Part shown: positions 31,495 to 46,560 of the stretch, in pieces
How the letters are laid out: every line of letters begins with the position of its first letter
Numbering within the stretch: the first letter of the stretch is position 1
Virus record (IMG/VR): IMGVR_UViG_3300034061_005520
Location: 62,001 to 126,000 of that record
Origin: a virus
DNA length: 64,000 nucleotides
Direction: 5' to 3' (one strand)
Translations under genes and position numbers: made by a program
The notes under the pieces: generated by a model
What the model was told of the DNA's origin: nothing
Seen by the model: the letters and a program-made list of their open reading frames with translations, nothing else
The model's database searches: none

Positions 31495-31585
31495 GCCCTA
31501 AAGCCTTATGAGGCAAGAGTTTAGGGCGAGTATGGCCCGCAAAATTTGTCCTAAGTACTTATGTAGCAAGGATTTACGTTAAATA
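31495..31585. repeat. Intergenic 38-bp dyad element, copy 1
   Basis: Box 1 (GTTTAG variant) and box 2 (TAAGTACTTA, 31552-31561) flank TTTAGGGCGAGTATGGCCCG. Box centres are 38 bp apart. It follows the subtilase gene in a region without a gene (31385-31647), which also holds a partial copy-like stretch near 31430-31465. Confidence 0.75.
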
Positions 31586-31647
31586 AATATCTTTCAAGTA
31601 TACGTTGGGATATGTCGATATTGTATATATAAGAAAGAGAGGCTATA

Positions 31648-31824
31648 ATGTACGATATGATTTTGGCTATCACGTTCATGGGATTTGGGGTTGGATACGA
31701 GGGATATAGTGATGGGAAATATTATCTTGGGACGTATACTCCTACTAAGGAATATGGGTGGGTTGTAGAGAATGGGGAAATTCATTTAGATTCTATTCTA
31801 GAAAAAACAAATGTTCAGTATTGA
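31648..31824 (+). CDS. Small hypothetical protein
   Basis: 58 residues (MYDMILAITFMGFGVGYEGYSDG...), preceded by AAGAAAGAGAGG. Moderately hydrophobic N-terminus, no known motif. Followed directly by a promoter for the next gene. Confidence 0.5.
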   Translation: MYDMILAITFMGFGVGYEGYSDGKYYLGTYTPTKEYGWVVENGEIHLDSILEKTNVQY

Positions 31825-31849
31825 CCACAAATAGCCGATACTGTATAAT
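31821..31849 (+). promoter_or_regulatory. Promoter, YCGATA type
   Basis: TTGACC, 17 bases containing CCGATA, TATAAT. Drives the gene at 31881. Confidence 0.75.
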
Positions 31850-31880
31850 AGATACAACACAAGAGAAGAAGGAAAGAACA

Positions 31881-32033
31881 ATGGAAAACGATCTGCTGTA
31901 TATGGCTCGCTCGCTGGGTTTCGAAGGAGAATCGCGGGAGGATCTGAATAGACTGTGCGATGAGCATAAGGTATCGGACGATATGCGAGAGAAGATGGTT
32001 AAGGAATACGAAGAAGGATATTTTGATTGGTGA
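31881..32033 (+). CDS. Small hypothetical protein
   Basis: 50 residues (MENDLLYMARSLGFEGESR...), start preceded by AAGAAGGAAAG. Acidic and helical; no recognised family. Confidence 0.55.
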   Translation: MENDLLYMARSLGFEGESREDLNRLCDEHKVSDDMREKMVKEYEEGYFDW

Positions 32034-32047
32034 ATATCGGTACAGTA

Positions 32048-32075
32048 TTGATTCCTAAAGATTTTGTGGTATAAT
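32048..32075 (+). promoter_or_regulatory. Promoter
   Basis: TTGATT, 16 bases, TATAAT, with CCGATA just after the -10. Confidence 0.7.
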
Positions 32076-32104
32076 ACCGATATAAGAAGTAAAGGAGAAA
32101 AGAG

Positions 32105-32191
32105 ATGAGTTGCCCTGACCCACTGTATGATTATGCTGATTGGCTCGAAGAAGACGAAAGGGAATACGATGAACCCGAATCAGACGAGTAG
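32105..32191 (+). CDS. Very short acidic protein
   Basis: 28 residues (MSCPDPLYDYADWLEEDER...). AAAGGAG lies nine bases upstream. The MSxPDPxYD start matches the protein at 35643, suggesting a shared family. A +1 overlapping frame (32169-32246) may be translated from its end. Low certainty because of its length. Confidence 0.5.
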   Translation: MSCPDPLYDYADWLEEDEREYDEPESDE

Positions 32192-32246
32192 CGAATTGGC
32201 TATGATTGTTGCTATTCTTAAGGATATGAATAGTAAACGTAAGTAG
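32169..32246 (+). CDS. Possible overlapping micropeptide
   Basis: 25 residues (MNPNQTSSELAMIVAIL...) starting inside the previous gene in another frame. Coupling could supply translation. Length and lack of a ribosome site make it doubtful. Confidence 0.3.
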   Translation: MNPNQTSSELAMIVAILKDMNSKRK

Positions 32247-32320
32247 TTGCTACGTAAGCACTTAGGGCGAGCCGGCCCCGCAAAATTTGACGTAAGTGCT
32301 TATCCCGTAACGAGTTATAT
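32238..32320. repeat. Intergenic 38-bp dyad element, copy 2
   Basis: TAAGCACTTA (32255-32264) and TAAGTGCTTA (32293-32302) flank GGGCGAGCCGGCCCCGC; centres 38 bp apart. Followed by TTGACT/TATAAT at 32348. Confidence 0.88.
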
Positions 32321-32347
32321 CTAATCTAAAAAAACATTTGTATAGTA

Positions 32348-32375
32348 TTGACTTTTAAAGAATCTTTGGTATAAT
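32348..32375 (+). promoter_or_regulatory. Promoter
   Basis: TTGACT, 16 bases, TATAAT, with TCGATA directly after the -10. Drives the gene at 32413. Confidence 0.78.
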
Positions 32376-32412
32376 GTCGATATAAGAAGTAAGAAAGAAA
32401 GAGAGAAAGAAG

Positions 32413-32559
32413 ATGATGAATAAGACTATGAAGAATGCAAGTAAGAGAATTAAGAATCTTCAGATTCGTGAAAAGGCATATGCTATGCCGATTGTGAATA
32501 AAGATATGATGATGAATGATGAAAGCGTAAAGAAGTTTTTTGAGAGTATGAAAAACTAA
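32413..32559 (+). CDS. Small basic protein
   Basis: 48 residues (MMNKTMKNASKRIKNLQIREKAYAMP...), Lys/Asn/Met-rich and helical. Preceded by GAGAGAAAGAAG. No recognised family. Confidence 0.5.
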   Translation: MMNKTMKNASKRIKNLQIREKAYAMPIVNKDMMMNDESVKKFFESMKN

Positions 32560-32562
32560 CGC

Positions 32563-32592
32563 TTGACAACAAACTATCCGATAAGGTATAAT
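32563..32592 (+). promoter_or_regulatory. Promoter, YCGATA type
   Basis: TTGACA, 18 bases containing CCGATA, TATAAT. The gene start at 32599 lies only seven bases after the -10, so the transcript may be leaderless. Confidence 0.78.
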
Positions 32593-32598
32593 GTGATC

Positions 32599-32748
32599 AT
32601 GGGAAACAAGAAACATATCTGGTGGACAACCGCTAATCGGATTGGTGATCGCTTTGTGCTGTATGTGAATGGGGAAATTATGGGTAATTACCTCACTCTT
32701 GACGAATGTTGGAATCTTTATCAGGCTATCTCAAAGGAAACAAAATGA
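32599..32748 (+). CDS. Small hypothetical protein
   Basis: 49 residues (MGNKKHIWWTTANRIGDRFVLYVNGEIMG...), beta-rich. The start chosen follows the -10 box closely; an upstream start at 32563 would lie inside the promoter. Overlaps the next start as ATGA. Confidence 0.55.
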   Translation: MGNKKHIWWTTANRIGDRFVLYVNGEIMGNYLTLDECWNLYQAISKETK

Positions 32749-32942
32749 GCGTTTATTCTTTTGCTTGGTTGGTTGAGGCTATGCGTACTCGTCGTGAAAT
32801 CATTCTGGTAAGCCATGATTGCAAGCCTGTAAAGGGTTTGGTGAATGGTATTCGGCCGGAAGATGGTAGCGGAAAGAATTGGCTTGTGACCATTTGTTCA
32901 GTAGGCCAACCATCTAAGGAAGTGTTTGTTCAGGCGTCGTAA
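32745..32942 (+). CDS. Small hypothetical protein
   Basis: 65 residues (MSVYSFAWLVEAMRTRREIILVSHDCKPVKG...), start preceded by AAAGGAAAC. Compact beta-sheet pattern, no recognised family. Coupled to the preceding gene. Confidence 0.55.
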   Translation: MSVYSFAWLVEAMRTRREIILVSHDCKPVKGLVNGIRPEDGSGKNWLVTICSVGQPSKEVFVQAS

Positions 32943-33021
32943 GGCGTTGTGAACAAAGGACTTACGGCGAGCCGGCGCCGCGAAATTCGCCCTAAGTATA
33001 TGCTACATATAGACTTACAAC
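32941..33021. repeat. Intergenic 38-bp dyad element, copy 3
   Basis: AAAGGACTTA (32955-32964) and TAAGTATATG (32993-33002) flank CGGCGAGCCGGCGCCGC. Centres 38 bp apart. The box-adjacent position is C against C here where most copies have G against G. Confidence 0.85.
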
Positions 33022-33059
33022 GCAAAATAAAAAATCTGAAAAAATTCATGTGGCTAGGC

Positions 33060-33088
33060 TTGACAAGCCGATATTAGTAGTGTAGAAT
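33060..33088 (+). promoter_or_regulatory. Promoter, YCGATA type
   Basis: TTGACA, 17 bases containing CCGATA, TAGAAT. Confidence 0.78.
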
Positions 33089-33118
33089 CGTGGTATGAGA
33101 AAGAAAGAGGAAAAGAAG

Positions 33119-33310
33119 ATGACTTTGGAAGTTTATCAGAATGGTTCGGCTGTTGGTTTCGTTCGTGCTAAGAATACGCTCGAAGCGTATAAGATTGTGA
33201 GAGAGTTCTTTCCGGATTGCTCTAATGTTCGCACTGGACATTTGCCGATCTCTGATGTAAGATGCGTAAAGGTGAACGATAACGTCTATACTTGGAACCT
33301 TACCAAATGA
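33119..33310 (+). CDS. Small hypothetical protein
   Basis: 63 residues from the ATG at 33119, preceded by AAAGAGGAAAAG; an in-frame start at 33095 would be leaderless. Beta-rich (LEVYQNGSAVGFVRAKNTLEAYKIV). The stop overlaps the next start as ATGA. Confidence 0.55.
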   Translation: MTLEVYQNGSAVGFVRAKNTLEAYKIVREFFPDCSNVRTGHLPISDVRCVKVNDNVYTWNLTK

Positions 33311-33513
33311 GTCCTGAACTAATCGCTATGGCTTGCCTGTTTGTGGTGGGTATTATTATCATGGGATTGGTTTGTGCTGTGCTTGCTATTGGGGATACCC
33401 TGTGTAAAAGAATGGCCGAAAAAGAATTGAATGATGCGGGGTTTGGGACTGATGGATTTATCAGTACAGATGAGGATGGTGTTCGGTGGCTCGTAGGATA
33501 TAAAAAGGATTAA
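33307..33513 (+). CDS. Small membrane protein
   Basis: 68 residues. Residues 6-28 (IAMACLFVVGIIIMGLVCAVLAI) form one membrane helix; the rest is a soluble acidic tail. Coupled to the upstream gene by ATGA. Function unknown. Confidence 0.6.
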   Translation: MSPELIAMACLFVVGIIIMGLVCAVLAIGDTLCKRMAEKELNDAGFGTDGFISTDEDGVRWLVGYKKD

Positions 33514-33528
33514 AGAAAGGAACACGGG

Positions 33529-33639
33529 ATGTTCGATAATATAGATATAGATTGGACGTGGATGCTTGTGGGATTTGTTGTTGGTATTGGTAGTGCTTGG
33601 TTTGTTTCTGATTTGGTTTTTCCTATAAGGAAGAAATAA
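33529..33639 (+). CDS. Very small membrane protein
   Basis: 36 residues (MFDNIDIDWTWMLVGFVVGIGSAWFV...), with AAAGGAACACGGG upstream. One hydrophobic segment. Stop overlaps the next start as TAATG. Confidence 0.5.
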   Translation: MFDNIDIDWTWMLVGFVVGIGSAWFVSDLVFPIRKK

Positions 33640-33716
33640 TGAATCTTTACGATAAGGTAGTGCTTTCTGTATCCTTTGCTTTCGGTTGTGTGGTTGCTTG
33701 GGTGATTAACTCTTAA
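33639..33716 (+). CDS. Very small membrane protein
   Basis: 25 residues (MNLYDKVVLSVSFAFGCVVAWVINS), one hydrophobic segment, started at TAATG directly at the previous stop. Confidence 0.42.
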   Translation: MNLYDKVVLSVSFAFGCVVAWVINS

Positions 33717-33800
33717 CCTAAGTGGTTGACACATAAGGACTTAGGGCGAGCCGGCGCCGCCCCGCTTGCCGTAAGTTGTTTGATACCAACGCTTTACGAG
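33717..33800. repeat. Intergenic 38-bp dyad element, copy 4
   Basis: TAAGGACTTA (33734-33743) and TAAGTTGTTT (33772-33781) flank GGGCGAGCCGGCGCCGCC. Centres 38 bp apart. As RNA, ACTTAGGGCGAGC pairs with GCTTGCCGTAAGT with one G against G mismatch and one wobble. Confidence 0.9.
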
Positions 33801-33861
33801 CAATTTCTCACGATACCATGTGTCCACTGTAGCACCTAAAGAAAACGGTTAGACGCAACAG

Positions 33862-33890
33862 CCGGCCAGATAAGGACTTAGGGAAAATCG
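33862..33890. repeat. Truncated dyad element, copy 5
   Basis: AGCCGGCCAGATAAGGACTTAGGG retains one box (TAAGGACTTA) and the core fringe but no second box. Confidence 0.5.
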
Positions 33891-33912
33891 GATAATTTTC
33901 TAAACATTGCGT

Positions 33913-33941
33913 TTGACTTTTGACGATCTCTTAGGTATAAT
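33913..33941 (+). promoter_or_regulatory. Promoter
   Basis: TTGACT, 17 bases with ACGATC, TATAAT. Confidence 0.75.
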
Positions 33942-33967
33942 TCAGCATAAGAAAGAGAGAGTGAAAG

Positions 33968-34156
33968 ATGGAAAAGTTGACTGTGAGTGAAGAAATCGTT
34001 GTGGCTGCTCTGCTGAAAACCAGTGAGCAGAATATGGCTTCTCTGGTGGAAAGCGGAGTAAGTGAGAATCTGACCAAGATGCTCATTGAGGATCTGCAAA
34101 CCATTCGCGTGATTCGTCGCAAGTTGGGTTTGGATGCCTACAATTATTCAAAGTAG
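33968..34156 (+). CDS. Small helical protein
   Basis: 62 residues (MEKLTVSEEIVVAALLKTSEQNM...), predicted helical bundle with a basic C-terminal part (RVIRRKLGLD). Preceded by AAGAAAGAGAGAG. No recognised family. Confidence 0.55.
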   Translation: MEKLTVSEEIVVAALLKTSEQNMASLVESGVSENLTKMLIEDLQTIRVIRRKLGLDAYNYSK

Positions 34157-34159
34157 GGT

Positions 34160-34189
34160 TTGACACTCACCAAAGAGTTTTGCTAGAAT
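34160..34189 (+). promoter_or_regulatory. Promoter
   Basis: TTGACA, 18 bases, TAGAAT. No YCGATA box. Confidence 0.7.
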
Positions 34190-34212
34190 CAAACCAACAC
34201 GAAAGGGAAAAC

Positions 34213-34554
34213 ATGAAACAGAAATTTGAGATTATCGAAAACGCTAAGAAACAGGCTCGTATGTGCTTTCTTGGGATTGCGATTCCCCACCAACCCTCTC
34301 TGGCGGATGGTGAGTATGGGCCGATCAAGAGTGAGAAGGTTTTGAAGTTCAACCGCAAGGCACTTCGCAACCTTGGCAAAGTGAAGAAAGAGAAGTCCGA
34401 TCCGCGATTTGTGGGTGGTGAGGATACCATGATCGTAAAGGCTGGAAAGCCGGGTTCGCAGGAACGCATTGAGGCTCTTGCCCACCAGTATGCTGCGATT
34501 CTCGCGTGTGGCGAGGAAGTTTCGCCCTTCGCGTTCAAAGGGGACGATGAATAA
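34213..34554 (+). CDS. Hypothetical basic protein
   Basis: 113 residues from the ATG at 34213, preceded by GAAAGGG. Lys/Arg-rich, soluble; segment LGIAIPHQPSLADGEYGP and QYAAILACGEEVSP. Not recognised. Confidence 0.6.
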   Translation: MKQKFEIIENAKKQARMCFLGIAIPHQPSLADGEYGPIKSEKVLKFNRKALRNLGKVKKEKSDPRFVGGEDTMIVKAGKPGSQERIEALAHQYAAILACGEEVSPFAFKGDDE

Positions 34555-34579
34555 TCGTTCACCACTGAACAAAAAACTG

Positions 34580-34667
34580 AACCTAAACCCTTGCTACTAA
34601 AAGACTTAGAGCGAGGCCGGCGGCGAAAATTTGCTCTAAGTGCTTATGTGATAACGACTTAGGAACA
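34580..34667. repeat. Intergenic 38-bp dyad element, copy 6
   Basis: AAAAGACTTA and TAAGTGCTTA (34637-34646) flank GAGCGAGGCCGGCGGCG. Centres 38 bp apart. Here ACTTAGAGC pairs with GCTCTAAGT without mismatch. Confidence 0.88.
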
Positions 34668-34693
34668 GAATAAAAATCTTCTAAAGATTATGC

Positions 34694-34722
34694 TTGACTC
34701 TTGCCGATCTATACTATATAAT
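34694..34722 (+). promoter_or_regulatory. Promoter, YCGATA type
   Basis: TTGACT, 17 bases containing CCGATC, TATAAT. Confidence 0.78.
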
Positions 34723-34738
34723 CGAGTGTAGGAGAAAG

Positions 34739-34888
34739 ATGATGAAAACGAAGAAGAAGCCAGTAAGTGGATTTCAGAAAACGGAACTCAGGATGAAGCA
34801 AGAGACTGGTCGTGCTTTGGCTCAAGTAAAGTTTCTGGAAAAACTGTATCGTGAAACGTTGGAAAGCAAGCAAAAGGAAAACAAGTAA
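34739..34888 (+). CDS. Small basic coiled protein
   Basis: 49 residues (MMKTKKKPVSGFQKTELRMKQ...), Lys-rich helix. Preceded by AGGAGAAAG. Stop overlaps the next start as TAATG. Confidence 0.5.
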   Translation: MMKTKKKPVSGFQKTELRMKQETGRALAQVKFLEKLYRETLESKQKENK

Positions 34889-35199
34889 TGAATCATTCCG
34901 AAGCGGTTAAGATGGTTCGTGGCAAGCGTAACGCTAACCGTCGCAAGGTTGGTAATAATACTTACGCTGAGATTCTGCATGATGGTAGCGTGGGTATTAT
35001 GCTGCACAGTACCTATGTGGTCAAGATTCACGAAGATGGTACTTATACACTCAATAGTGGTGGCTGGCAAACTCTGACCACTAAGGATCGTATCAACCAG
35101 TATAGCCCACGTTATGTTTATCAAAAGAATTTTGAATGGTTTGTGAAAATTAACGACAAATCCTATCCTTTTATGGATGGTATGGTTGTGGGAAATTGA
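34888..35199 (+). CDS. Hypothetical beta-rich protein
   Basis: 103 residues (MNHSEAVKMVRGKRNANRRKVGNNTYAEIL...). A basic N-terminal segment, then a beta pattern (VGIMLHSTYVVKIHEDGTYTLNSGGWQTLTT). Phage proteins of this pattern are known but unassigned. Coupled to the preceding gene. Confidence 0.6.
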   Translation: MNHSEAVKMVRGKRNANRRKVGNNTYAEILHDGSVGIMLHSTYVVKIHEDGTYTLNSGGWQTLTTKDRINQYSPRYVYQKNFEWFVKINDKSYPFMDGMVVGN

Positions 35200-35285
35200 C
35201 GTAAAGCCTTGTCCCTAAAGAACTTAGGGCGAGGCCGCGCCGCCCGCCGCGTCGTAAGTCCTTATGCTGCAACACTTTACATCGA
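35199..35285. repeat. Intergenic 38-bp dyad element, copy 7
   Basis: AAAGAACTTA (35217-35226) and TAAGTCCTTA (35255-35264) flank GGGCGAGGCCGCGCCGCC. Centres 38 bp apart. Followed by an A/T tract and the next promoter. Confidence 0.9.
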
Positions 35286-35317
35286 CAATTTTTTTTAGAT
35301 TTTTTATAGATACCCTA

Positions 35318-35345
35318 TTGACTTGGCCGATATACTCTGTATAAT
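35318..35345 (+). promoter_or_regulatory. Promoter, YCGATA type
   Basis: TTGACT, 16 bases containing CCGATA, TATAAT. Confidence 0.78.
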
Positions 35346-35382
35346 GGTAGTATCACAAGTGAAACCCCAAAGGAAGTCAAAA

Positions 35383-35580
35383 ATGTATTCTTTCGAAGAA
35401 ATCAACTCGATTCTGGATCAAATGGCCCAAGAGGGTACGATTGAGCCTATGGTCGAGCCGATTGACGATCCTAGCGTGGAAGTCAACTTTTGGGATTGGG
35501 CAGATGTTGTGGGTTGTGTGGATGATTTTGCTCCTGTCGAGATGATGGATGAAAACGGCGAAACGTGGATTGTGGAATAG
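35383..35580 (+). CDS. Acidic hypothetical protein
   Basis: 65 residues (MYSFEEINSILDQMAQEGT...), strongly acidic, start preceded by CAAAGGAAG. No known motif. Confidence 0.55.
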   Translation: MYSFEEINSILDQMAQEGTIEPMVEPIDDPSVEVNFWDWADVVGCVDDFAPVEMMDENGETWIVE

Positions 35581-35583
35581 GGC

Positions 35584-35612
35584 TTGACAGCCTAAAGTTT
35601 TTAGGATAGAAT
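35584..35612 (+). promoter_or_regulatory. Promoter
   Basis: TTGACA, 17 bases, TAGAAT, with CCGATA directly after the -10. Confidence 0.75.
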
Positions 35613-35642
35613 CCCGATAACACTAGTAAAGAGGAAAAAGAA

Positions 35643-35885
35643 ATGAGCCATCCTGACCCGTGCTATGATCCTGACAACTCTTACGAGGACGATATGAACT
35701 ACGACGATTACAATGATTTCAATTACGGTGAAGTTGACGCTGATGAACTGGAGAACAGTTGGGATGATTCGTATGATGATAGTATGGATGGGGATCATGA
35801 GAGTGGCCTATCTTCCGCTGGATGGGGAACCGATGAGGATTACGGATATTATGGTGATGATACCGAAATGAATGAAGATTACTAA
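35643..35885 (+). CDS. Highly acidic protein
   Basis: 80 residues, about a third Asp and Glu with repeated DD and Tyr (DDMNYDDYNDFNYGEVDADELE). Starts MSHPDPCYD, like the short protein at 32105. Strongly negative small phage proteins often mimic DNA; that is only a possibility here. Overlaps the next frame slightly. Confidence 0.6.
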   Translation: MSHPDPCYDPDNSYEDDMNYDDYNDFNYGEVDADELENSWDDSYDDSMDGDHESGLSSAGWGTDEDYGYYGDDTEMNEDY

Positions 35886-35907
35886 TTTACCTTTAAGGAA
35901 AAAAGAA

Positions 35908-36135
35908 ATGAAGTGCGTTGTAACCCATACTGATACTTTTGCTGGTGAGGCTAACTACGGCTGGGTCAAGCGTTGGGAGTTTGTACCCAAGTATGATTCT
36001 CAGCGTAGCATTATTCGCAAGGCCAAGGCTTTGGCTGGCTTTACGGGTGTGAAATCTGAAACCGAAGATTATGGCGATAGTTTCAAGATTAAGCCTCGCG
36101 GCTACAATCAAGTAATTTTCGTAGACTTCGAATAA
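35908..36135 (+). CDS. Hypothetical basic protein
   Basis: 75 residues from the ATG at 35908, preceded by AAGGAAAAAAG. MKCVVTHTDTFAGEANYGWVKRWEF and YNQVIFVDFE suggest a small alpha/beta fold found in other phage genomes without known function. Confidence 0.6.
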   Translation: MKCVVTHTDTFAGEANYGWVKRWEFVPKYDSQRSIIRKAKALAGFTGVKSETEDYGDSFKIKPRGYNQVIFVDFE

Positions 36136-36138
36136 AAC

Positions 36139-36230
36139 TCTCCGCAAACCCTTTGTGCATAAGCACTTAGGGCGAGCGGGGGCCGCCGGCCTCGTCGTAA
36201 CTCCTTACACAGCAACACTTTACGTCTAAA
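36139..36230. repeat. Intergenic 38-bp dyad element, copy 8
   Basis: TAAGCACTTA (36160-36169) and TAACTCCTTA (36198-36207) flank GGGCGAGCGGGGGCCGCC. Centres 38 bp apart. Followed by an A7T6 tract and a promoter. Confidence 0.9.
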
Positions 36231-36252
36231 AAAATTTTTTAAAGATTTCCTC

Positions 36253-36280
36253 TTGCATTTGCCGATCTATATGGTATGAT
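36253..36280 (+). promoter_or_regulatory. Promoter, YCGATA type
   Basis: TTGCAT, 16 bases containing CCGATC, TATGAT. Confidence 0.7.
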
Positions 36281-36305
36281 TACAGCAGACATGAAAGGAA
36301 CAATT

Positions 36306-36557
36306 ATGAGTTACAATGGCTACTCTAATTACCAGACTTGGAATGTTTGTCTGTGGATTGCTAATGATGAAGGTCTGAACGATTTTGCGGCCTCTTGCAA
36401 AGATTATGATGCTTTCAAGTCTGGCTTGCGTGAAATTGACGAAAATTCGTCTTTTGCATATGAGACACAGGATGGTGTGGCATGGAGTGATAGTGCCATA
36501 AACCTTGAGGAAATGCACGACTTTTGGGCCGAAAATTTTTCTAATGTTGAGGCTTGA
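36306..36557 (+). CDS. NYxTWNV-type conserved phage protein
   Basis: 83 residues starting MSYNGYSNYQTWNVCLWIANDEG, a signature of a small conserved phage family (I believe DUF7249) of unknown function. The acidic C-terminus is LEEMHDFWAENF. Start preceded by AAAGGAAC. Confidence 0.75.
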   Translation: MSYNGYSNYQTWNVCLWIANDEGLNDFAASCKDYDAFKSGLREIDENSSFAYETQDGVAWSDSAINLEEMHDFWAENFSNVEA

Positions 36558-36582
36558 CAACAGTCGATACATAGTGTAGACT
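36554..36582 (+). promoter_or_regulatory. Promoter, YCGATA type
   Basis: TTGACA, 17 bases containing TCGATA, TAGACT; it overlaps the end of the previous gene. Confidence 0.72.
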
Positions 36583-36624
36583 TGTGATATGTTGATTGAG
36601 GGTTTTCTAACTGAAAGGGTTTTT

Positions 36625-37029
36625 ATGAACGATGTTCTTCTGTTTGGTGGTATTCTGGCTGGTGTGACTGCTGTTATTGTGGCTGCTCTTGCCTATGCTG
36701 TTTATGGTGGTGTTCACGGTACGCTTGCATCTGCTAAGCCGGGTGAAATCTACAATTTCATCTACAAGCAGCCTTTGCAGGGCGAACCGGAGCGTTATCT
36801 TGCGAAGGTTGTGGAAGTTCACACTCTGGATGACTACTCTATTCGTAGGCTCAATGCTCGTAGTCGCTATCGTGCGAATGATCCCGAGTTTCAGCGTACT
36901 CGCCACCTTGTGACTTGCGAAATGCCCAATGGTACGGTTCGCAACTTCTATGCGGAACGTACTGAAAAGTGCCGTAGGCCGGTTGGGGCTCAGGCTCTGT
37001 TCGCTACGGGTCTGGCTCATCTTATCTAA
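36625..37029 (+). CDS. Membrane-anchored basic protein
   Basis: 134 residues from the ATG at 36625 (MNDVLLFGGILAGVTAVIVAALAYAVYGG), one membrane helix, then a basic soluble part ending CEMPNGTVRNFYAERTEKCRRP. The central RARYRANDPEFQRTRHLVTCE-like segment recurs in other phage proteins. A longer start at 36589 would be leaderless. The soluble part may face the cytoplasm. Confidence 0.62.
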   Translation: MNDVLLFGGILAGVTAVIVAALAYAVYGGVHGTLASAKPGEIYNFIYKQPLQGEPERYLAKVVEVHTLDDYSIRRLNARSRYRANDPEFQRTRHLVTCEMPNGTVRNFYAERTEKCRRPVGAQALFATGLAHLI

Positions 37030-37061: not shown

Positions 37062-37146
37062 CCCTAAGTTGTTGCTACGGCAGCACTTAGGGCCGAGGGG
37101 CGCCGCCCGGCTCGTCGTAACTCTTTATGCTGCAACACTTTACATC
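37062..37146. repeat. Intergenic 38-bp dyad element, copy 9
   Basis: GGCAGCACTTA and TAACTCTTTA (37118-37127) flank GGGCCGAGGGGCGCCGCC. Centres 38 bp apart. Outer arms (TAAGTTGTTGC, GCTGCAACACTTTA) pair as well, so the whole element can fold as an 80-base hairpin. Confidence 0.9.
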
Positions 37147-38505: not shown

Positions 38506-38620
38506 TGATATTTGTCAGTGTGGCGAGAACAACGATATGGCCTATAGGCTAGATGATCGTGGTGTGTGGTGGTATTGGTGTGGAACTTGTGGCTGGTGGC
38601 ACCTAAGTGATTGGAAATAA
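38492..38620 (+). CDS. Small zinc-ribbon protein
   Basis: 42 residues (MKILSDICQCGENND...WWYWCGTCGWWHLSDWK). Four Cys in two pairs indicate a zinc ribbon. Too short for the usual threshold, but the overlapped start and the Cys pattern support it. Confidence 0.55.
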   Translation: MKILSDICQCGENNDMAYRLDDRGVWWYWCGTCGWWHLSDWK

Positions 38621-38690
38621 AGGACTTACGAACAGGGCGGCGGGGCCGATTCGTTCTAAGTTGTTATTTCTCAACACTTTACGACTAAAA
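38604..38690. repeat. Intergenic 38-bp dyad element, copy 10
   Basis: AAAGGACTTA and TAAGTTGTTA (38657-38666) flank ACGAACAGGGCGGCGGGGCCG. Centres 38 bp apart; the core is more divergent than in other copies. Confidence 0.82.
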
Positions 38691-39408: not shown

Positions 39409-39409
39409 G

Positions 39410-39781: not shown

Positions 39782-39866
39782 CCTAAACCCCTACGCCGTA
39801 AGCACTTACGGTAAACGGGGCCGGCCCGGCTCGACGTAACTCGTTATGTACCAATGACTTAGAACA
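39780..39866. repeat. Intergenic 38-bp dyad element, copy 11
   Basis: TAAGCACTTA (39799-39808) and TAACTCGTTA (39837-39846) flank CGGTAAACGGGGCCGGCCCGGC. Centres 38 bp apart. Confidence 0.88.
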
Positions 39867-40501: not shown

Positions 40502-40588
40502 CTCCTAAACTCTTTGAGGATAAAGACTTAGGGCGAACCGGCGCGGCCCGGCTTGACGTAACTCCTTTAGCATCAACACCTTGCGTCA
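40502..40588. repeat. Intergenic 38-bp dyad element, copy 12
   Basis: TAAAGACTTA and TAACTCCTTT (40559-40568) flank GGGCGAACCGGCGCGGCCCGGC. Centres 38 bp apart. The TAG of the left box also stops a 26-residue frame after the tRNA. Confidence 0.88.
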
Positions 40589-41372: not shown

Positions 41373-41380
41373 GAATAATC

Positions 41381-41974
41381 ATGGCTACTAAATTTAGTTA
41401 TGTTGGAAAGTATGAGAATAGTGGTAGCAGGAACTCTTTCTATAAACTGTCTGGAAAACCATATGGTTTCAAGAGTTTTCCTAATAAGAGTTTGGCCGAG
41501 TTTGCTCATGCTGTTCAAAGTCATTTAGCCCCATATCTTGCCCCAAAGGTTTACAGTTCGGTTTGCAAAATCCGTATTGCTAACTATTTTGTGGATGGTA
41601 TAGAGAATAACAAGATTAAATATCGAACCGAAATGGTTTTGAGTGATTGGGGTTACTTAACCGAAATTGCAAAGCCTTTTGTGTGTAGAAATAGTGAATG
41701 TGAGGGGTCTTGCATAGATTCTGGATGTTGCCCTAACTATTATGTTTTATCTGATTTGTTGGAAGAAATCAGCGACTACGGGGTGGAATACTCTGATTGC
41801 CATGAGGGTAATTTTGGATATGTTAGGCGTGGCAAATCTAGGATATTAGTTCCGATTGACTTTGGACGAGAAAGTATCGGATATACGGACGATGATATGT
41901 TTCCAGAAGTTTGCTATCAAGGCGTTGATGATGCTTATTGTGACTGCCCTAAATGCGAGGAATGTTATGTCTAA
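41381..41974 (+). CDS. Protein-kinase-like (HRD/DFG-type) protein
   Basis: 197 residues. EYSDCHEGNFGYVRRGKSRILVPIDFGRES (about 137-167) has the order D-x-H-x-x-N followed by DFG, the catalytic and metal-binding core of kinase-like folds. A Cys cluster (CRNSECEGSCIDSGCC) sits before it and a second one (CDCPKCEEC) at the end. No glycine-rich loop is obvious, so it may be an atypical or inactive kinase. Overlaps the next start by eight bases. Confidence 0.6.
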   Translation: MATKFSYVGKYENSGSRNSFYKLSGKPYGFKSFPNKSLAEFAHAVQSHLAPYLAPKVYSSVCKIRIANYFVDGIENNKIKYRTEMVLSDWGYLTEIAKPFVCRNSECEGSCIDSGCCPNYYVLSDLLEEISDYGVEYSDCHEGNFGYVRRGKSRILVPIDFGRESIGYTDDDMFPEVCYQGVDDAYCDCPKCEECYV

Positions 41975-42209
41975 ATATTATGTCAAATGTGGTACGCTAG
42001 AACTAATCTACTCAACAAGTAAAAATCCTCTTGAGGCAGCAGTAACTACTCTTGGTGAAAGCAATAAGTTCGATGTTCTAGATGAATACTTCTATATAGA
42101 TGAGCGTGGTTTTAGAGACTATGCGACAGCAGATAAAGAAACTCAGGTAATCAAATTGAATAAGGTGTGTAGAAAAGCGGGCTGGGAAATTAATAGAGAA
42201 GACGAGTAA
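41967..42209 (+). CDS. Hypothetical small protein
   Basis: 80 residues from the ATG at 41967 (MSKYYVKCGTLELIYSTSKNPLEAAVTTL...). Similar openings occur in small phage proteins of unknown role. Starts inside the previous gene. Confidence 0.6.
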   Translation: MSKYYVKCGTLELIYSTSKNPLEAAVTTLGESNKFDVLDEYFYIDERGFRDYATADKETQVIKLNKVCRKAGWEINREDE

Positions 42210-42213
42210 AACT

Positions 42214-42298
42214 AACCGCAAACCCTTTGGGCGTAAGCACTTAGGGCTAGCGGGGCGCCTCCGATTCTTCGTAACTCCTTATACTTCAACCACTTAGA
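42214..42298. repeat. Intergenic 38-bp dyad element, copy 13
   Basis: TAAGCACTTA (42234-42243) and TAACTCCTTA (42272-42281) flank GGGCTAGCGGGGCGCCTCC. Centres 38 bp apart. Confidence 0.88.
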
Positions 42299-42316
42299 AA
42301 AAATTAAAGAATGGGT

Positions 42317-42345
42317 GGACGGATACCGATAAGTATGATATGCTA
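42317..42345 (+). promoter_or_regulatory. Promoter, YCGATA type
   Basis: TGGACG, 17 bases containing CCGATA, TATGCT. Weaker boxes than the others. Confidence 0.55.
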
Positions 42346-42366
42346 ATCAGACGCAGAGGAGAAAGA

Positions 42367-42735
42367 ATGATCCAGTGGATAGGGGTGATAATTGCCCTGT
42401 TAGGTTTGGCCTATAATGGTGTAAAAGACTATCAAAAGGGTGATATAAAAATACCCAAACTACCAAAAAAAGAAGTATTGACAAAGGTGGTTTATCCGGT
42501 ACAATACTGCTTAATGGCTTACGACCCTAATGTTGACAAGGTTTTTTACTTACACGAAAATGGACAATGGCATGATTACGCTCCACAACAACGACGATAC
42601 CCGACCACGCCGCAAGTACGGCAAGATCAAAGTCAAGGCCAAGCAGCCTTGGGAGGCTCCTACGGGACACAAGGAGTATCGGGATACTACTATGGACAGC
42701 AGGCCCAAGCGACAGCGAACACGACGAGACATTGA
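42367..42735 (+). CDS. Small membrane-anchored protein
   Basis: 122 residues from the ATG at 42367, preceded by GAGGAGAAAG. Residues 4-20 (IGVIIALLGLAYNGVKD) form a membrane helix. The Gln/Gly/Tyr-rich C-terminal half overlaps the next gene in another frame and may be shaped by it. Function unknown. Confidence 0.55.
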   Translation: MIQWIGVIIALLGLAYNGVKDYQKGDIKIPKLPKKEVLTKVVYPVQYCLMAYDPNVDKVFYLHENGQWHDYAPQQRRYPTTPQVRQDQSQGQAALGGSYGTQGVSGYYYGQQAQATANTTRH

Positions 42736-42766
42736 CAGGGGTTGGCAGCAAGAGTATGATATGTAG
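42560..42766 (+). CDS. Overlapping basic protein
   Basis: 68 residues (MDNGMITLHNNDDTRPRRKYGKIKVKAKQPWEAPTG...DSRPKRQRTRRDIDRGWQQEYDM). The composition reads like a real basic phage protein, and most of it lies in a second frame of the preceding gene. No clear ribosome site; the start could also be the ATG at 42575. Confidence 0.5.
   Translation: MDNGMITLHNNDDTRPRRKYGKIKVKAKQPWEAPTGHKEYRDTTMDSRPKRQRTRRDIDRGWQQEYDM
42732..42760 (+). promoter_or_regulatory. Promoter for tRNA-Thr and tRNA-Gln
   Basis: TTGACA, 17 bases, TATGAT, ending 10 bases before tRNA-Thr. Lies inside the end of the overlapping basic gene. Confidence 0.68.
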
Positions 42767-42770
42767 GATT

Positions 42771-42843
42771 GCCGATGTAGCTTCAATGGCAGAGCAACGG
42801 TTTTGTAAACCGTGGGTTGTAGGTTCGACTCCTATCATCGGCT
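42771..42843 (+). tRNA. tRNA-Thr (UGU)
   Basis: 73 bases. Acceptor GCCGATG/CATCGGC, anticodon stem ACGGT/ACCGT with loop TTTGTAA, T-loop TTCGACT. No encoded CCA. Confidence 0.93.
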
Positions 42844-42844
42844 C

Positions 42845-42915
42845 TCCGGGGTAGTGTAACGGTAGCACCAGAGATTTTGGTTCTCTTTGTCTGGGTTCGA
42901 ATCCTAGCCCCGGAA
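42845..42915 (+). tRNA. tRNA-Gln (UUG)
   Basis: 71 bases. Acceptor TCCGGGG/CCCCGGA, anticodon stem AGAGA/TCTCT with loop TTTTGGT, T-loop TTCGAAT. One base after tRNA-Thr. Confidence 0.93.
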
Positions 42916-42933
42916 TTAATAAAGGAGATAATT

Positions 42934-43356
42934 ATGCTTGGAAGTAATGCGATATACTTGGCAAGAGAAATCGGCAGTTGGGGTCTCACCAAGATGGACG
43001 AGGCTCAAAGAATAGATACTATCAAAAAGAATGAAGTTACTATTCGTTCTTTTAATAATTCTATTAGCGATATGGGGATAATGATGTATGAGTTTATGAC
43101 TAATAACAGTAGATCTAACCTGTATGGTTATAAAATGAAATTTGCTGCTATAGAGAACATATCGGCCGAATTGCTTTCTTGTTTGACCTATAATAGTAAT
43201 GTAGCATTTGGTTCTTGCGAAAAAGACTATAATAGAATAGCAGATGACTTGACAGTTATGGCAAAGATTTTGGATTTTGAGATAGAGAATAATATGACAA
43301 GCACTGATATTCGTAGTAAGACTTATAAGATTATGCCAAGGGAAGTGGCGGTATAA
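42934..43356 (+). CDS. Hypothetical helical protein between tRNA genes
   Basis: 140 residues from the ATG at 42934, preceded by AAAGGAG. Helical, with Asn/Ser/Met-rich loops (FNNSISDMGIMMYEFMTNNSRSN). No recognised family. Confidence 0.6.
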   Translation: MLGSNAIYLAREIGSWGLTKMDEAQRIDTIKKNEVTIRSFNNSISDMGIMMYEFMTNNSRSNLYGYKMKFAAIENISAELLSCLTYNSNVAFGSCEKDYNRIADDLTVMAKILDFEIENNMTSTDIRSKTYKIMPREVAV

Positions 43357-43361
43357 TTTTT

Positions 43362-43433
43362 TGCCCGATAGCACAATGGTAGTGCGGCAAACTGTTAATT
43401 TGTAGGTTCTAGGTTCGAGTCCTAGTCGGGCAG
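43362..43433 (+). tRNA. tRNA-Asn (GUU)
   Basis: 72 bases. Acceptor TGCCCGA/TCGGGCA, anticodon loop CTGTTAA with stem GCAAA/TTTGT, T-stem CTAGG/CCTAG. Confidence 0.92.
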
Positions 43434-43436
43434 TTT

Positions 43437-43523
43437 GGAATCTTGGCCGAGTGGTTTAAGGCAGCGGTTTACTAAACCGCCGAGGGTTAAAATCCTCCGG
43501 GGGTTCGAATCCCTCAGATTCCG
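43437..43523 (+). tRNA. tRNA-Ser-like with anticodon ACU
   Basis: 87 bases with a long variable arm, typical of tRNA-Ser. Acceptor GGAATCT/AGATTCC, anticodon stem GCGGT/ACCGC, loop TTACTAA. The anticodon ACU would read AGU; adenine at position 34 is unusual, since GCU is standard. Confidence 0.85.
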
Positions 43524-43549
43524 TCGGAGGCTGACGCAGAGTTGCGGAC

Positions 43550-43620
43550 ATTGGCGTAGTTCAACGGTAGAATGACGGTCTCCAAAACCGTAGATGAAGG
43601 TTCGATTCCTTCCGCCTTTG
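43550..43620 (+). tRNA. tRNA-Trp (CCA), acceptor with two U-U mismatches
   Basis: 71 bases. Anticodon stem ACGGT/ACCGT with loop CTCCAAA, T-arm GAAGG TTCGATT CCTTC. Acceptor ATTGGCG against CGCCTTT pairs five of seven positions. May be functional, edited or degenerating. Confidence 0.75.
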
Positions 43621-43635
43621 CTTAAAGTTTTGCTC

Positions 43636-43664
43636 TTGACAGGCCGATAACAGTAGTGTAGACT
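43636..43664 (+). promoter_or_regulatory. Promoter, YCGATA type
   Basis: TTGACA, 17 bases containing CCGATA, TAGACT. Confidence 0.78.
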
Positions 43665-43686
43665 ATTGGAAAGAAAGGAAACCAAT

Positions 43687-43875
43687 ATGAAAACTGTTCG
43701 CTTCTACGATATGGTTATTGATTGTTTTGAGAATGGCGTTGAGACAACTCGACAACTTGAGAATGAATTGCGTCTACAACTGCCCCAAGATTTTGATCTG
43801 AACGATGCTTTTGATATGTTAAATCGGGAAACTGGGTGTGATGTGTGTTCTTTTAAGTATGAAAATATAGCCTAA
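43687..43875 (+). CDS. Small acidic protein
   Basis: 62 residues (MKTVRFYDMVIDCFENGVETTRQLENELRLQ...), start preceded by AAAGGAAAC. Helical, with two Cys near the end (GCDVCSF). No known family. Confidence 0.52.
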   Translation: MKTVRFYDMVIDCFENGVETTRQLENELRLQLPQDFDLNDAFDMLNRETGCDVCSFKYENIA

Positions 43876-43902
43876 AAAGATGGTTCAGTGGTTGGCCGAT
43901 TT

Positions 43903-43975
43903 GGAGGCGTAACTTAGTGGCTAAAGTAGCGGTCTTTTAAACCGAAAACCGTGGGTTCGAGTCCCACCGCCTCCA
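43903..43975 (+). tRNA. tRNA-Lys (UUU)
   Basis: 73 bases. Acceptor GGAGGCG/CGCCTCC, anticodon loop CTTTTAA, T-stem GTGGG/CCCAC. The outermost anticodon-stem pair is mismatched (G against A). Confidence 0.9.
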
Positions 43976-44033
43976 CTAGTATGGTGTATAACTAGAGTAG
44001 CAGATTACTAGTAAACTACTCTAGGAGATAATA

Positions 44034-44447
44034 ATGCACAGTAAAAGAAAAGGTAATATAGGGCAGTTCGGTGTTGGTTTAGCATTAACTAAACTGGGGT
44101 ACTCCGTATTCACAGAAGAAGGAGACATTTCTAAAATAGATATTATTGCCGAAAAAGATGGCAACCTAATAAAAATACAATCTAAGGCAATAACACCGGT
44201 GGATGGTTGTATTAAAATACCTCTAAAAAAGAGTGGCCCAAACTATCAGTTTTATTATGATGCTTCAATGTTTGACTACTTTGCCGCATACGATCTAGAG
44301 GATGGTAAGGTGTACCTAGTATCCTCAGATATACTGACAGAAAACAATACCTTGTTTAACCTAAGAAAAGAATTTCCAAAAAATAATCAAAAAGATAAAA
44401 TTAATCTTGCTTCTGATTACGAGATTGAAAAAATTCTTGGGTCTTGA
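44034..44447 (+). CDS. PD-(D/E)XK nuclease-like protein
   Basis: 137 residues. NIGQFGVGLALTKLGYSVF, then KIDIIAEKDGNLIKIQSKA, resembles the restriction-endonuclease-like fold of small intron-associated and resolvase-type nucleases: Gln replaces the first helix Glu, Asp in KIDII, and IQSK where the usual ExK stands. Q instead of E in the last motif is common in this family (QxK). Likely a DNA cleaving enzyme, free-standing. Start preceded by TAGGAGA. Confidence 0.62.
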   Translation: MHSKRKGNIGQFGVGLALTKLGYSVFTEEGDISKIDIIAEKDGNLIKIQSKAITPVDGCIKIPLKKSGPNYQFYYDASMFDYFAAYDLEDGKVYLVSSDILTENNTLFNLRKEFPKNNQKDKINLASDYEIEKILGS

Positions 44448-44472
44448 CAGTTTGACCGCTTTGGTGTAAGAT
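44444..44472 (+). promoter_or_regulatory. Promoter
   Basis: TTGACA, 17 bases, TAAGAT; CCGCTT in place of CCGATA. Overlaps the end of the previous gene. Confidence 0.65.
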
Positions 44473-44496
44473 AAGAATCTAGAAAGGAGTAAGCCT

Positions 44497-44685
44497 ATGC
44501 GTTATTATGACGAAGAAACAGATTATCCGTTTGATTACGAAAATATGATGAGCGGTGGGTTTGATGATCTTCTGGAGGAAGAAGATTACACCGACGATGA
44601 ACTGTATGAAGTTAACGACGAGAACGACGTTGACGAATGGGTTAACTCCTACAATAATGTAGAAGATGAAATTGTTGACGAGTAA
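44497..44685 (+). CDS. Strongly acidic small protein
   Basis: 62 residues, about 40% Asp/Glu with Tyr (MRYYDEETDYPFDYENMMSGG). Similar composition to the protein at 35643, but without the MSxPDP start. Start preceded by GAAAGGAG. Ends immediately before a tRNA-like element. Confidence 0.58.
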   Translation: MRYYDEETDYPFDYENMMSGGFDDLLEEEDYTDDELYEVNDENDVDEWVNSYNNVEDEIVDE

Positions 44686-44689
44686 TAAT

Positions 44690-44776
44690 GTGGATGCCTC
44701 TCGGTGGGACGAGACTCTTTTCTATAAATCCTTTCTTTCTTATCTCAAGTAGTACGTTCGAATCGTACCATCCACT
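44690..44776 (+). tRNA. tRNA-like element without an anticodon arm
   Basis: 87 bases. The acceptor GTGGATG/CATCCAC pairs perfectly, a D-like hairpin TCTCG/CGAGA encloses GTGGGA, and the T-arm GTACG TTCGAAT CGTAC is intact. Between 44715 and 44751 the sequence is a pyrimidine-rich run with no five-pair anticodon stem. It could be a pseudo-tRNA, an intron-bearing tRNA, or a tRNA mimic. Confidence 0.5.
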
Positions 44777-44779
44777 CTT

Positions 44780-45286
44780 ATGAATACGCTGAATCAGAAC
44801 GTAGACGATTTCAGGGTAATGGCAGACGGTAAGGTTATCCAAGGTGCTAGCCACACCTGTATGGTATTGAATCATAAGATTCGTAATAAGGCTATCATTA
44901 AGGCAATTTGCGATCTGCGTAGAATTAGCAATCAGTTTGATAGTATCGTTTGCTGCGGAACTAGCGGACTAATGGTTGTTCCGCAAATAGCAGAATTGCT
45001 AGATAAGCATATTGTTGTAATTAGAAAGCCAGAAACAAAATCATATAGTGGTTTTGCTATAGAGGGCGTGATTCCTTTTAGGTACGTTATTGTTGATGAT
45101 CTGGTTTGCTCTGGTTCTACTATAAAATTTATTAAGAATACTATCTACGAAGAATGCCCTAAATCTAGGTGTGTTGGCGTTTATTGTTATATGCCAGATG
45201 AGTGTGCGTACAACACCGAGAACGCTAAACTTTTTGAACGTGACTTTGGCACACTGTTCTTAAATCCAGGCCCGCCAAGAACTTAG
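44780..45286 (+). CDS. Phosphoribosyltransferase
   Basis: 168 residues. YVIVDDLVCSGSTIKFI (about 96-112) is the type I PRTase PRPP-binding loop: two acidic residues, then Ser-Gly-Ser-Thr. SIVCCGTSGLMVVPQIAELLDK lies before it as the first strand and loop. Role is probably salvage of a nucleobase for phage DNA. It begins four bases after the tRNA-like element. The stop TAG lies inside the following dyad element. Confidence 0.85.
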   Translation: MNTLNQNVDDFRVMADGKVIQGASHTCMVLNHKIRNKAIIKAICDLRRISNQFDSIVCCGTSGLMVVPQIAELLDKHIVVIRKPETKSYSGFAIEGVIPFRYVIVDDLVCSGSTIKFIKNTIYEECPKSRCVGVYCYMPDECAYNTENAKLFERDFGTLFLNPGPPRT

Positions 45287-45345
45287 GGCGAGGCGGGGCG
45301 GCCCCGCGTGACGTAACTCCTTACGTATCAACACCTTGCGACGAG
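45262..45345. repeat. Intergenic 38-bp dyad element, copy 14
   Basis: GAACTTA box and TAACTCCTTA (45314-45323) flank GGGCGAGGCGGGGCGGCCCCGC. Centres 38 bp apart. The TAG of its first box is the stop of the PRTase gene. Confidence 0.88.
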
Positions 45346-45369
45346 AAAATTTTTTCGCAAGATTTCCTA

Positions 45370-45397
45370 TTGACAAGCCGATAACATACTGTAGAAT
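45370..45397 (+). promoter_or_regulatory. Promoter, YCGATA type
   Basis: TTGACA, 16 bases containing CCGATA, TAGAAT. Confidence 0.8.
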
Positions 45398-45440
45398 AGG
45401 TGGAGTTGAACGAAGTACGATAACACGAAAGGTTAATGAG

Positions 45441-46391
45441 ATGGCTCATGCAGTTGAACAGATGATGTTTGTTGGTGCTACTCCGTGGCATGGTCTTGGC
45501 AATCAGTTGGATGAGGCTCCCACGATTAGCGAGGCAATTACCGCCGCTGGTCTGGACTGGGAGGTTGGTCTTAAGGATTTGTTTACGAGCGAAGGTACTC
45601 CGGTTCCGGCTCGTGCAACCTATCGCAAAACCGACAACTCTATCTTGGGTGTTGTTGGCCCGCGATATACTCCGCTGCAAAACAGCGATGCTTTCGATTG
45701 GTTTCAGCCGTTTCTTGATGCTAACGAGTGCCAACTTCATACTGCCGGATCGCTCCATAGCGGTCAAAAGGTGTGGGTTCTCGCTCAACTCAACCGCGAC
45801 AATAGCGAGATCGTGAAGGGTGATGAGGTTTCCAAGTTTATCCTTCTGTCTAACAGCCATGATGGTACAACTGCAATTCGCGTCGGCTACACCCCGATTC
45901 GTGTTGTGTGTGCTAACACGATGGCAATGGCCCATAGCAAGGGTAGCGGTTCGCAGTTGATTCGGATTCGACACACTCGCTCCAGCCAGAAGAATCTGGA
46001 ACAGGTTCGAGATATTATGGATAATATCAATGTCCAGTTCGAGGCTACTGCGGAACAGTTTCGGTTCCTCGCTAGCAAGAACTTTAATCAGGGTGATATT
46101 CGTCGATATGTTAAGTCGATGCTGGGCATCGAAGGTACGCCCGACGAAGATGTTAAGACTCGCACCAGAAATATCATGGACGAGATTCTTGCTCTGGTCG
46201 AAGGGCCGAAGCAATCAGCAACGGGTGTTAGGGGTACTTGGTGGGCTGCTTATAACGGCTACAATGAATACCTTAACTATAACAAGGGTCGCACGACCGA
46301 TAACCGGCTCGATTCGCTCTGGTTCGGTCAGAACGCGAACGATAACAGCAAGGCGTTAACGACTGCTCTGGAGTTTGCGAACGCTATCTAA
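45441..46391 (+). CDS. DUF932 family protein
   Basis: 316 residues from the ATG at 45441 (MAHAVEQMMFVGATPWHGLGNQLDEAPTI), preceded by GAAAGG. TPWHGLG and IRVVCANTMAMAHS are hallmarks of the DUF932 phage/plasmid protein family, whose function is unknown. The region is GC-rich and codon-biased like other likely highly expressed genes. Followed by a strong terminator. Confidence 0.85.
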   Translation: MAHAVEQMMFVGATPWHGLGNQLDEAPTISEAITAAGLDWEVGLKDLFTSEGTPVPARATYRKTDNSILGVVGPRYTPLQNSDAFDWFQPFLDANECQLHTAGSLHSGQKVWVLAQLNRDNSEIVKGDEVSKFILLSNSHDGTTAIRVGYTPIRVVCANTMAMAHSKGSGSQLIRIRHTRSSQKNLEQVRDIMDNINVQFEATAEQFRFLASKNFNQGDIRRYVKSMLGIEGTPDEDVKTRTRNIMDEILALVEGPKQSATGVRGTWWAAYNGYNEYLNYNKGRTTDNRLDSLWFGQNANDNSKALTTALEFANAI

Positions 46392-46416
46392 CTTTTCGTG
46401 TCACGATGAAAAGGGG

Positions 46417-46457
46417 AAGGGCCGTGGCTGGGAAACCGGCTGCGGCCTTTTCTTTTA
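46417..46457 (+). terminator. Rho-independent terminator
   Basis: AAGG-GCCGTGGCTGG pairs with CCGGCTGCGGCCTT around a GAAA loop with one bulged G, then TTTTCTTTT. Ends the DUF932 transcript. Confidence 0.88.
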
Positions 46458-46471
46458 ATTCATTGACCACT

Positions 46472-46560
46472 AGACGTAACTCTTTAATACGTAAGGACTT
46501 AGGGCAAGCCGGGCCCCGAAAATTAGTCGTAAGTTTAATGCTGGTAAGGGGTTACGGCAA
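46472..46560. repeat. Intergenic 38-bp dyad element, copy 15
   Basis: TAAGGACTTA (46492-46501) and TAAGTTTAAT (46530-46539) flank GGGCAAGCCGGGCCCCG. Centres 38 bp apart. Last copy in the window and the only one after a classic terminator. Confidence 0.85.

Follow-up and report, generated by a model that had tools for sequence, protein, structure and literature searches.

Enhancers of sigma54 promoters are upstream sites of the NtrC type. In phage phi29, the regulator protein p4 has sites of the form 5'-CTTTTT-15 bp-AAAATG-3' (PMC3100819), and class I activation of the CRP type uses sites near -61.5 (PMC5957442). T4-type phages carry promoter early stem loop (PeSL) cassettes (Arbiol 2010 and Comeau 2014, as cited in PMC4503421). 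Inverted repeats numbering ~11-34 per genome, mostly in non-structural regions, occur in mycobacteriophages of Cluster K (SAS/ESAS; PMC3203893) and Cluster O (17-bp palindromes; PMC4351075); ESAS have a variable spacer, mostly of 4-13 bp, and lie at translation starts (PMC3203893), and the Cluster O repeats are single short palindromes, some of them within genes (PMC4351075). No usable account of comparable elements in uncultured phages was found in the literature. Here we analyse a repeated intergenic module in 64,000 nucleotides of phage DNA (the window), bases 62001-126000 of the 152,676-bp IMG/VR virus record IMGVR_UViG_3300034061_005520, which belongs to a tailed phage with a large terminase and a portal. 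Our results support, with moderate confidence and from sequence evidence, a model in which the module is an upstream activating site at sigma70-type promoters, bound by a putative dimeric protein.

A sequence-only reading of this DNA had described 14 intergenic elements, each with two TAAGnnCTTA-like boxes whose centres lie 38 bp apart. This description stood: the + strand holds 14 copies of an 84-bp module between window positions 31497 and 46558, they align without a gap over all 84 bp, and the spacing from one TAAGNNCTTA box to the next is exactly 38 bp in 14/14 copies, so that the variable spacing that a proper alignment might have exposed did not appear. When a matrix was built with one copy left out, the left-out copy was in every case still ranked 14th or better among all sites of the 152,676-bp record, and a matrix scan of the + strand of that record gave no fifteenth site scoring above zero. 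The window contains 11 occurrences of TAAGNNCTTA, where 2.2 would be expected, and no shuffle had as many. The boxes are real, but they are not the basic unit. The conserved unit is rather a 29-bp dyad, CSTAAGTNNTTG-N5-CAANNACTTASG, in which two CSTAARTNNTT half-sites stand inverted at an offset of 18 bp (1,153 cases; the next commonest offset, 56 bp, has 112), and one module consists of two such dyads with centres 53 bp apart and a GC-rich core in between. Column statistics give the half-site order as forward, reverse, core, forward, reverse; the TAAGNNCTTA box is the product of an inner half-site that happens to be palindromic. The sequence of the core is not conserved, and in a few lineages the core is AT-rich or a small hairpin (CCCC-TTCG-GGGG in one lineage, L336); it may serve as a rigid spacer. 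Recent duplication as the source of the copies was considered and rejected, since the copies are only ~60-77% alike over long stretches and the family spans phages with terminases only ~30% identical. The modules and lone dyads are listed here in window coordinates, with -35 offsets (+N) counted from the A in the first inner ACTTA, which serves as the module's reference; ORF denotes an open reading frame.

31497..31580, + strand: module 1, two dyads with centres 53 bp apart; nothing beyond weak -35-like matches downstream
32238..32321, + strand: module 2; -35 at +88, promoter 32348-32375
32938..33021, + strand: module 3; -35 at +100, promoter 33060-33088
33717..33800, + strand: module 4; promoter 33913-33941 farther away, beyond an insertion with a lone dyad
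33854..33882, + strand: lone dyad between module 4 and its promoter
34582..34665, + strand: module 5; -35 at +90, promoter 34694-34722
35200..35283, + strand: module 6, starting directly after the stop of ORF 34888-35199; -35 at +96 (35318-35345), an out-of-phase exception
36143..36226, + strand: module 7; -35 TTGCAT at ~+88, -10 TATGAT ending at 36280
37063..37146, + strand: module 8; -35 at +88, promoter 37173-37200
38602..38685, + strand: module 9; -35 at +87, promoter 38711-38738
39782..39865, + strand: module 10, starting directly after the stop of ORF 39410-39781; -35 at +101, promoter 39905-39932
40504..40587, + strand: module 11; -35 at +88, promoter 40614-40642
42217..42300, + strand: module 12; weak -35 at +77, 42316-42344
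45259..45342, + strand: module 13, the TAG within its ACTTAG being the stop of ORF 44780-45286; -35 at +89, 45370-45397
46475..46558, + strand: module 14; weak promoter at +93, 46590-46618
46623..46651, + strand: lone weak dyad
47008..47036, + strand: lone dyad overlapping a weak -35 and weak promoter (TTGCGG ... TATACT)

Two details of the earlier description change with this list. A fifth copy, which had been counted without its spacing, is only a fragment at ~33871 within the lone dyad 33854-33882; and the statement that nothing occurs right of 46.6 kb is correct for pairs but not for lone dyads, of which two (46623-46651 and 47008-47036) score above threshold beyond that point, the dyad at 33854-33882 being the third to do so.

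The element is widespread among uncultured phages. Figures from our IMG/VR scans are lower bounds, and the loci are not all independent because some overlap or share one contig. A first scan with the inner part of the module, its gap left free over seven lengths, returned at least 120 stretches; among the matches listed, at least 170 have the spacing of the window against 16 at all other spacings. A matrix search of the IMG/VR matches yielded at least 558 copies, 408 of them non-redundant, and no match in shuffled sequence. The canonical module was matched in 30/32 records of 100 kb or more, and 29 of these 32 have a related terminase, mostly 70-80% identical and ~30% identical in the most distant. 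Scanning for the dyad only gave at least 2,613 dyads and >1,000 dyad pairs, in phages of up to ~240 kb: at least 814 pairs at 53 bp (191 loci), at least 136 at 50 bp (41 loci) and at least 77 at 52 bp (25 loci), with smaller groups at 41, 42, 46, 48, 51, 58 and 64 bp. Within a genome the spacing is as a rule locked, in 14/14, 7/7, 8/8, 15/15 and 13/13 pairs of five 53-bp genomes and in 10/10 and 11/11 pairs of the 50-bp genomes G019 and G025, whose modules the gapless matrix misses owing to their shorter core; one genome, G021, has mixed spacing. Hence the invariance claimed from the window holds for the window genome but not for its relatives, which use 52, 50, 48, 46, 42 or 58 bp: inter-dyad spacing differs between lineages, and the non-canonical spacings of the variable-gap scan proved real. 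Up to ~25 copies occur per genome. Cultured phages gave no convincing match. Among 84,980 species genomes, one scan picked out 8 stretches. Real modules stand in three small contigs of metagenome-assembled genomes (L135, L136 and L139), which probably represent misbinned phage, and the remaining five stretches resemble chance matches. The element was seen on no clear bacterial chromosome, and a host regulon was therefore rejected.

The modules are coupled to promoters at a distance that follows the turn of the DNA helix. Taking as promoters the sigma70-type consensus matches of at least 10/12 within 140 bp downstream, we found one behind 390 of 566 non-redundant modules, compared with 63 in an upstream control stretch. 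The -35 boxes peak at +78, +88/89 and +99/100, the gaps between being nearly empty, and the phasing R is 0.57 (251 positions, similar downstream sequences removed), whereas none of 2,000 jittered sets exceeded 0.23. In the 52-bp lineage, analysed separately, the -35 lies 43-44, 53-55, 63-66 or 75 bp from the centre of the near dyad, with R 0.80 at 10.5 bp (n=32). Two lineages thus independently show helically phased distances of 33, 44, 54, 65 and 75 bp between near dyad and -35. In the commonest class ~44 bp separate the near dyad from the -35, which places this dyad near -80 relative to the expected start, and the near-dyad centres overall would fall around -70, -80 and -90. Such a helical-phase-dependent position relative to the core promoter is what marks an upstream activator-binding site, and it is characteristic of a protein that needs to meet polymerase on one face of the helix. 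In the window, a recognisable -35 lies at +87 to +90 or +77 in eight copies and at +100/101 in two. A/T content is raised to ~0.7-0.9 just past the module, at the position of an UP element.

Two further signals were observed around these promoters. A CCGAT/CGATA motif lies in the -35/-10 spacer of 218/301 module promoters, in the window (promoters 31821-45397) and in relatives, and also in module-free promoters; this motif probably serves as another signal for regulation or recognition. An additional inverted repeat, CCTTACGNNATTGYAAGG, lies just 3' of some modules (17/431 by the full pattern; L107, L061, L097 and others), where it accompanies shifted -35 positions, +93 and +104.

The sequence-only reading had offered three roles for the element: a combined terminator and operator, a site for a protein looping the two boxes, or a family of structured RNA 3' ends. 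That the element works as double-stranded DNA is well supported. The compensatory changes on which a structured RNA would depend were sought in 408 copies and none was found: paired columns vary independently, and pairing in all four conceivable stems equals the independent-column expectation (0.666 against 0.676 for the inner stem). A left half joined to the right half of another copy folds better than the real halves do (-25.0 against -23.7 kcal/mol; whole-module z +6). Four window copies folded into differing structures, two of them no better than shuffles. The most strongly coupled columns are nearly all adjacent bases, which fits recognition by a protein. A scan of the window against Rfam gave nothing but tRNAs, and the terminator-like calls touching modules in the window number two, both weak. 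No U-tract follows the stem, the A/T-rich DNA starting ~35 bp past the core, and in a distant relative, G010, some modules have a separate intrinsic terminator as neighbour, on the flank opposite the promoter. The absence of an RNA pairing constraint together with these separate terminators indicates that the element is read as DNA and is not itself a terminator. The structured-RNA role is accordingly rejected and the terminator half of the first role is left without support, and a protein-binding site, with its rigid internal spacing, adjacent-base coupling and helically phased promoter distance, is the role to which the sequences strongly point; its protein may also loop the two boxes.

In our model of the module, a dimeric DNA-binding protein, encoded by phage or host, would recognise the 29-bp dyad, and two dimers would sit on paired dyads 53 bp, or about five helical turns, apart across the GC-rich core. 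The paired dimers would offer a surface to RNA polymerase bound downstream through alignment on the helix face, the near dyad being held on a fixed face, mostly ~44 bp before the -35, and A/T-rich DNA at the UP-element position would link the module to the -35 box. With one site repeated ahead of 14 small genes, these may form a single regulon. We infer that such a protein exists, that it is a dimer, that it activates rather than represses, and that the timing is early; the choice of activation follows from location only. The module promoters are probably early, because host-like promoters concentrate in the module part of the genome: of the near-consensus promoters of the record, 33/37 are on the + strand between 90 and 140 kb, and 19 of these lie in the module region.

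Several observations weigh against activation as we picture it. The inter-dyad spacings of 46-50 bp in some lineages are not whole turns away from 53 bp; ~30% of modules have no recognisable promoter within 140 bp; three modules of the window (4, 6 and 14) stand out of phase or at a distance from a promoter, and copy 1 has only weak matches; and the best candidate binder common to eight full records is also compatible with a small terminase. Most module promoters are near consensus (11/12 matches) and might need no activator, which is the best argument for repression. A rather unlikely alternative is that a repressor or silencer of the phage uses the module as its operator and so turns strong early promoters off; two dimers might, for instance, wrap or loop the DNA and contact polymerase. 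Such promoters, with an A/T-rich stretch upstream, could be strong unaided, paired dyads suit cooperative repressors, and helical phasing would fit a repressor that touches polymerase or loops DNA as well. However, classical operators overlap the promoter, and these sites, most of which stand 33 to 75 bp upstream of the -35, hardly ever cover -35/-10. This includes the lone dyads, which are mainly upstream of the -35 and lie over the core promoter in ~4/36 of those having a promoter nearby, and for this reason they suit an activator more than a repressor that acts by occlusion.

An enhancer for a sigma54 activator, with sigma54-like -24/-12 elements between module and promoter in relatives, is improbable. 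Such elements were observed between module and sigma70 promoter, on both strands, in 80/431 non-redundant copies (for example G029:C1:28679-39174, with 12 against 15 modules, and G012:C1:58903-62263). TGGCAY-N6-TGC occurs at that single gap in 106 cases, compared with almost none at neighbouring gaps, and almost only at +50 to +125. Yet most modules lack such an element, no exact match lies near any of the 14 window modules, more of the elements point back at the module, and an activator-domain match passed the cut-off in only 1/32 records. Slightly less probable still is a cassette for recombination or shuffling which, like PeSL, takes its promoter with it and for which regulation is secondary: most junctions of this region, whose genes are small and variable, do carry a copy, and the first downstream genes comprise many families plus 126 singletons, but a likeness of ~60-77% over long stretches is a poor substrate for homologous recombination, and shuffling alone leaves helical phasing and rigid internal spacing unexplained. 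Least probable of all is a structured RNA, whether terminator, processing site or RNA 3' end, for although some copies can form a long hairpin through inverted repeats (33717-33800, z -2.9) and the L336 core resembles a stem-loop, an RNA element would not be expected to keep helical phase with a promoter downstream of it, and the folding and covariation results speak against it.

Genes to the left of the modules include three that bear on the search for the protein that would bind an activating site (HTH, helix-turn-helix; aa, amino acids).

25760..26575, - strand: candidate DNA-binding protein, 271 aa, N-terminal HTH and long helices; weak HTH matches; phrog_323 D5-like regulator, E 2.8e-5
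26568..27221, - strand: sigma-70-like protein, 217 aa, adjoining the HTH gene; Pfam Sigma70_r2 E 2.5e-4, below cut-off; phrog_1740 E 0.0012
27425..27658, + strand: candidate DNA-binding protein, 77 aa, HTH-like with AT-hook RGRPRK

The 271-aa protein is present in 8/8 full records compared, beside the sigma-like gene. Its structural model has a mean predicted local distance difference test score (pLDDT) of 81 and gave no significant Foldseek match, the HK97 small terminase being among the weak matches. Because of this weak fold likeness and the position of the gene near the terminase, the protein could instead be a small terminase or have another packaging role. The 217-aa protein, which resembles sigma-70 region 2, is likewise kept in all eight records and is possibly, to judge by these matches, a phage sigma factor for other genes. 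The 77-aa protein was not found in two module-bearing genomes, G010 and G022. A 137-aa protein like L5 gp82 (38995-39408) was considered as module-specific, but this is void, as the supposed negatives G019 and G025 carry 50-bp modules.

Other features of the window were observed. A further intergenic repeat family, ATCCTACGGATTTG ... GTCAGCGA, lies at 38832-38881 and 46717-46766, with similar copies near 48030, 48740 and 49690, and continues to the right of the modules. Stretches of ~450 and ~200 nt without evident ORFs and without an Rfam match follow two module promoters (37200-37700 and 38740-38960) and may encode non-coding RNAs; seven tRNA genes are scattered among the module-controlled genes (40377-43976). 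A small protein (39410-39781) weakly matches the ribosomal L7/L12 C-terminal domain (E 9.6e-5, just below the cut-off). The subtilisin-like protease at 30062-31384 has an N-terminal LENRSLL, similar to an LExRxLL motif that occurs in planctomycete proteins; NCBIfam did not confirm a planctomycete-type domain in it, and the motif is a possible hint of a planctomycete host.

An activating site of this kind would provide a sequence signature for a probable early regulon of a widespread phage group of which we found no cultured member, and make the genes behind the modules candidates for host takeover or anti-defence. The helical phasing, for which natural variation was the sole source, shows with unusual clarity how promoter geometry can be deduced from metagenomes; it also turns the search for the binding protein into a defined experiment. 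We tentatively propose, as an idea more doubtful than activation itself, that the modules may reveal an undescribed family of phage transcription factors with an enhancer code of paired dyads and lineage-specific inter-dyad length in a very large uncultured group, which might activate a host-takeover regulon through helix-face contact with host polymerase and, in some lineages, in combination with sigma54-like elements.

How, then, do the modules compare with the known systems? Like the Cluster K and Cluster O repeats, they are inverted-repeat elements recurring many times in one phage genome; unlike those, their spacing is fixed and tied to promoters, and the ESAS pattern of a 13-bp SAS at the translation start with 17-bp repeats and a variable spacer was not found, the dyad spacer being fixed and upstream of promoters. 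With PeSL, as far as PMC4503421 describes them, they share repeated intergenic units, an inverted repeat plus early promoter and a plastic region of small genes; they differ from that description in having no RNA constraint and a fixed two-dyad DNA architecture, and of the PeSL features the promoter coupling is present while a functional stem-loop is unsupported by the half-swap folding. Paired dyads ~80-130 bp upstream of the start recall sigma54 enhancers, yet the module promoters are sigma70-type in nearly all copies, and the -24/-12 promoter belonging to each such enhancer is confined to the minority of copies given above. As in CRP-type class I activation, a dimer site would lie upstream of the -35, with near-dyad centres around -70, -80 and -90, whereas the module is a dyad pair with a GC core rather than a single site and has no CRP consensus. 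No homologue of phi29 p4 turned up, no search for one having been made, and the module dyad consensus does not match that of p4. The p4 system nevertheless resembles our model in combining a phage regulator, two inverted-repeat sites per binding region, phage promoters used by host polymerase and an involvement of A-tracts (PMC3100819); the modules are set apart from it by half-site sequence, dyad geometry and pair spacing, by their number of up to 25 per genome and by their helical phasing.

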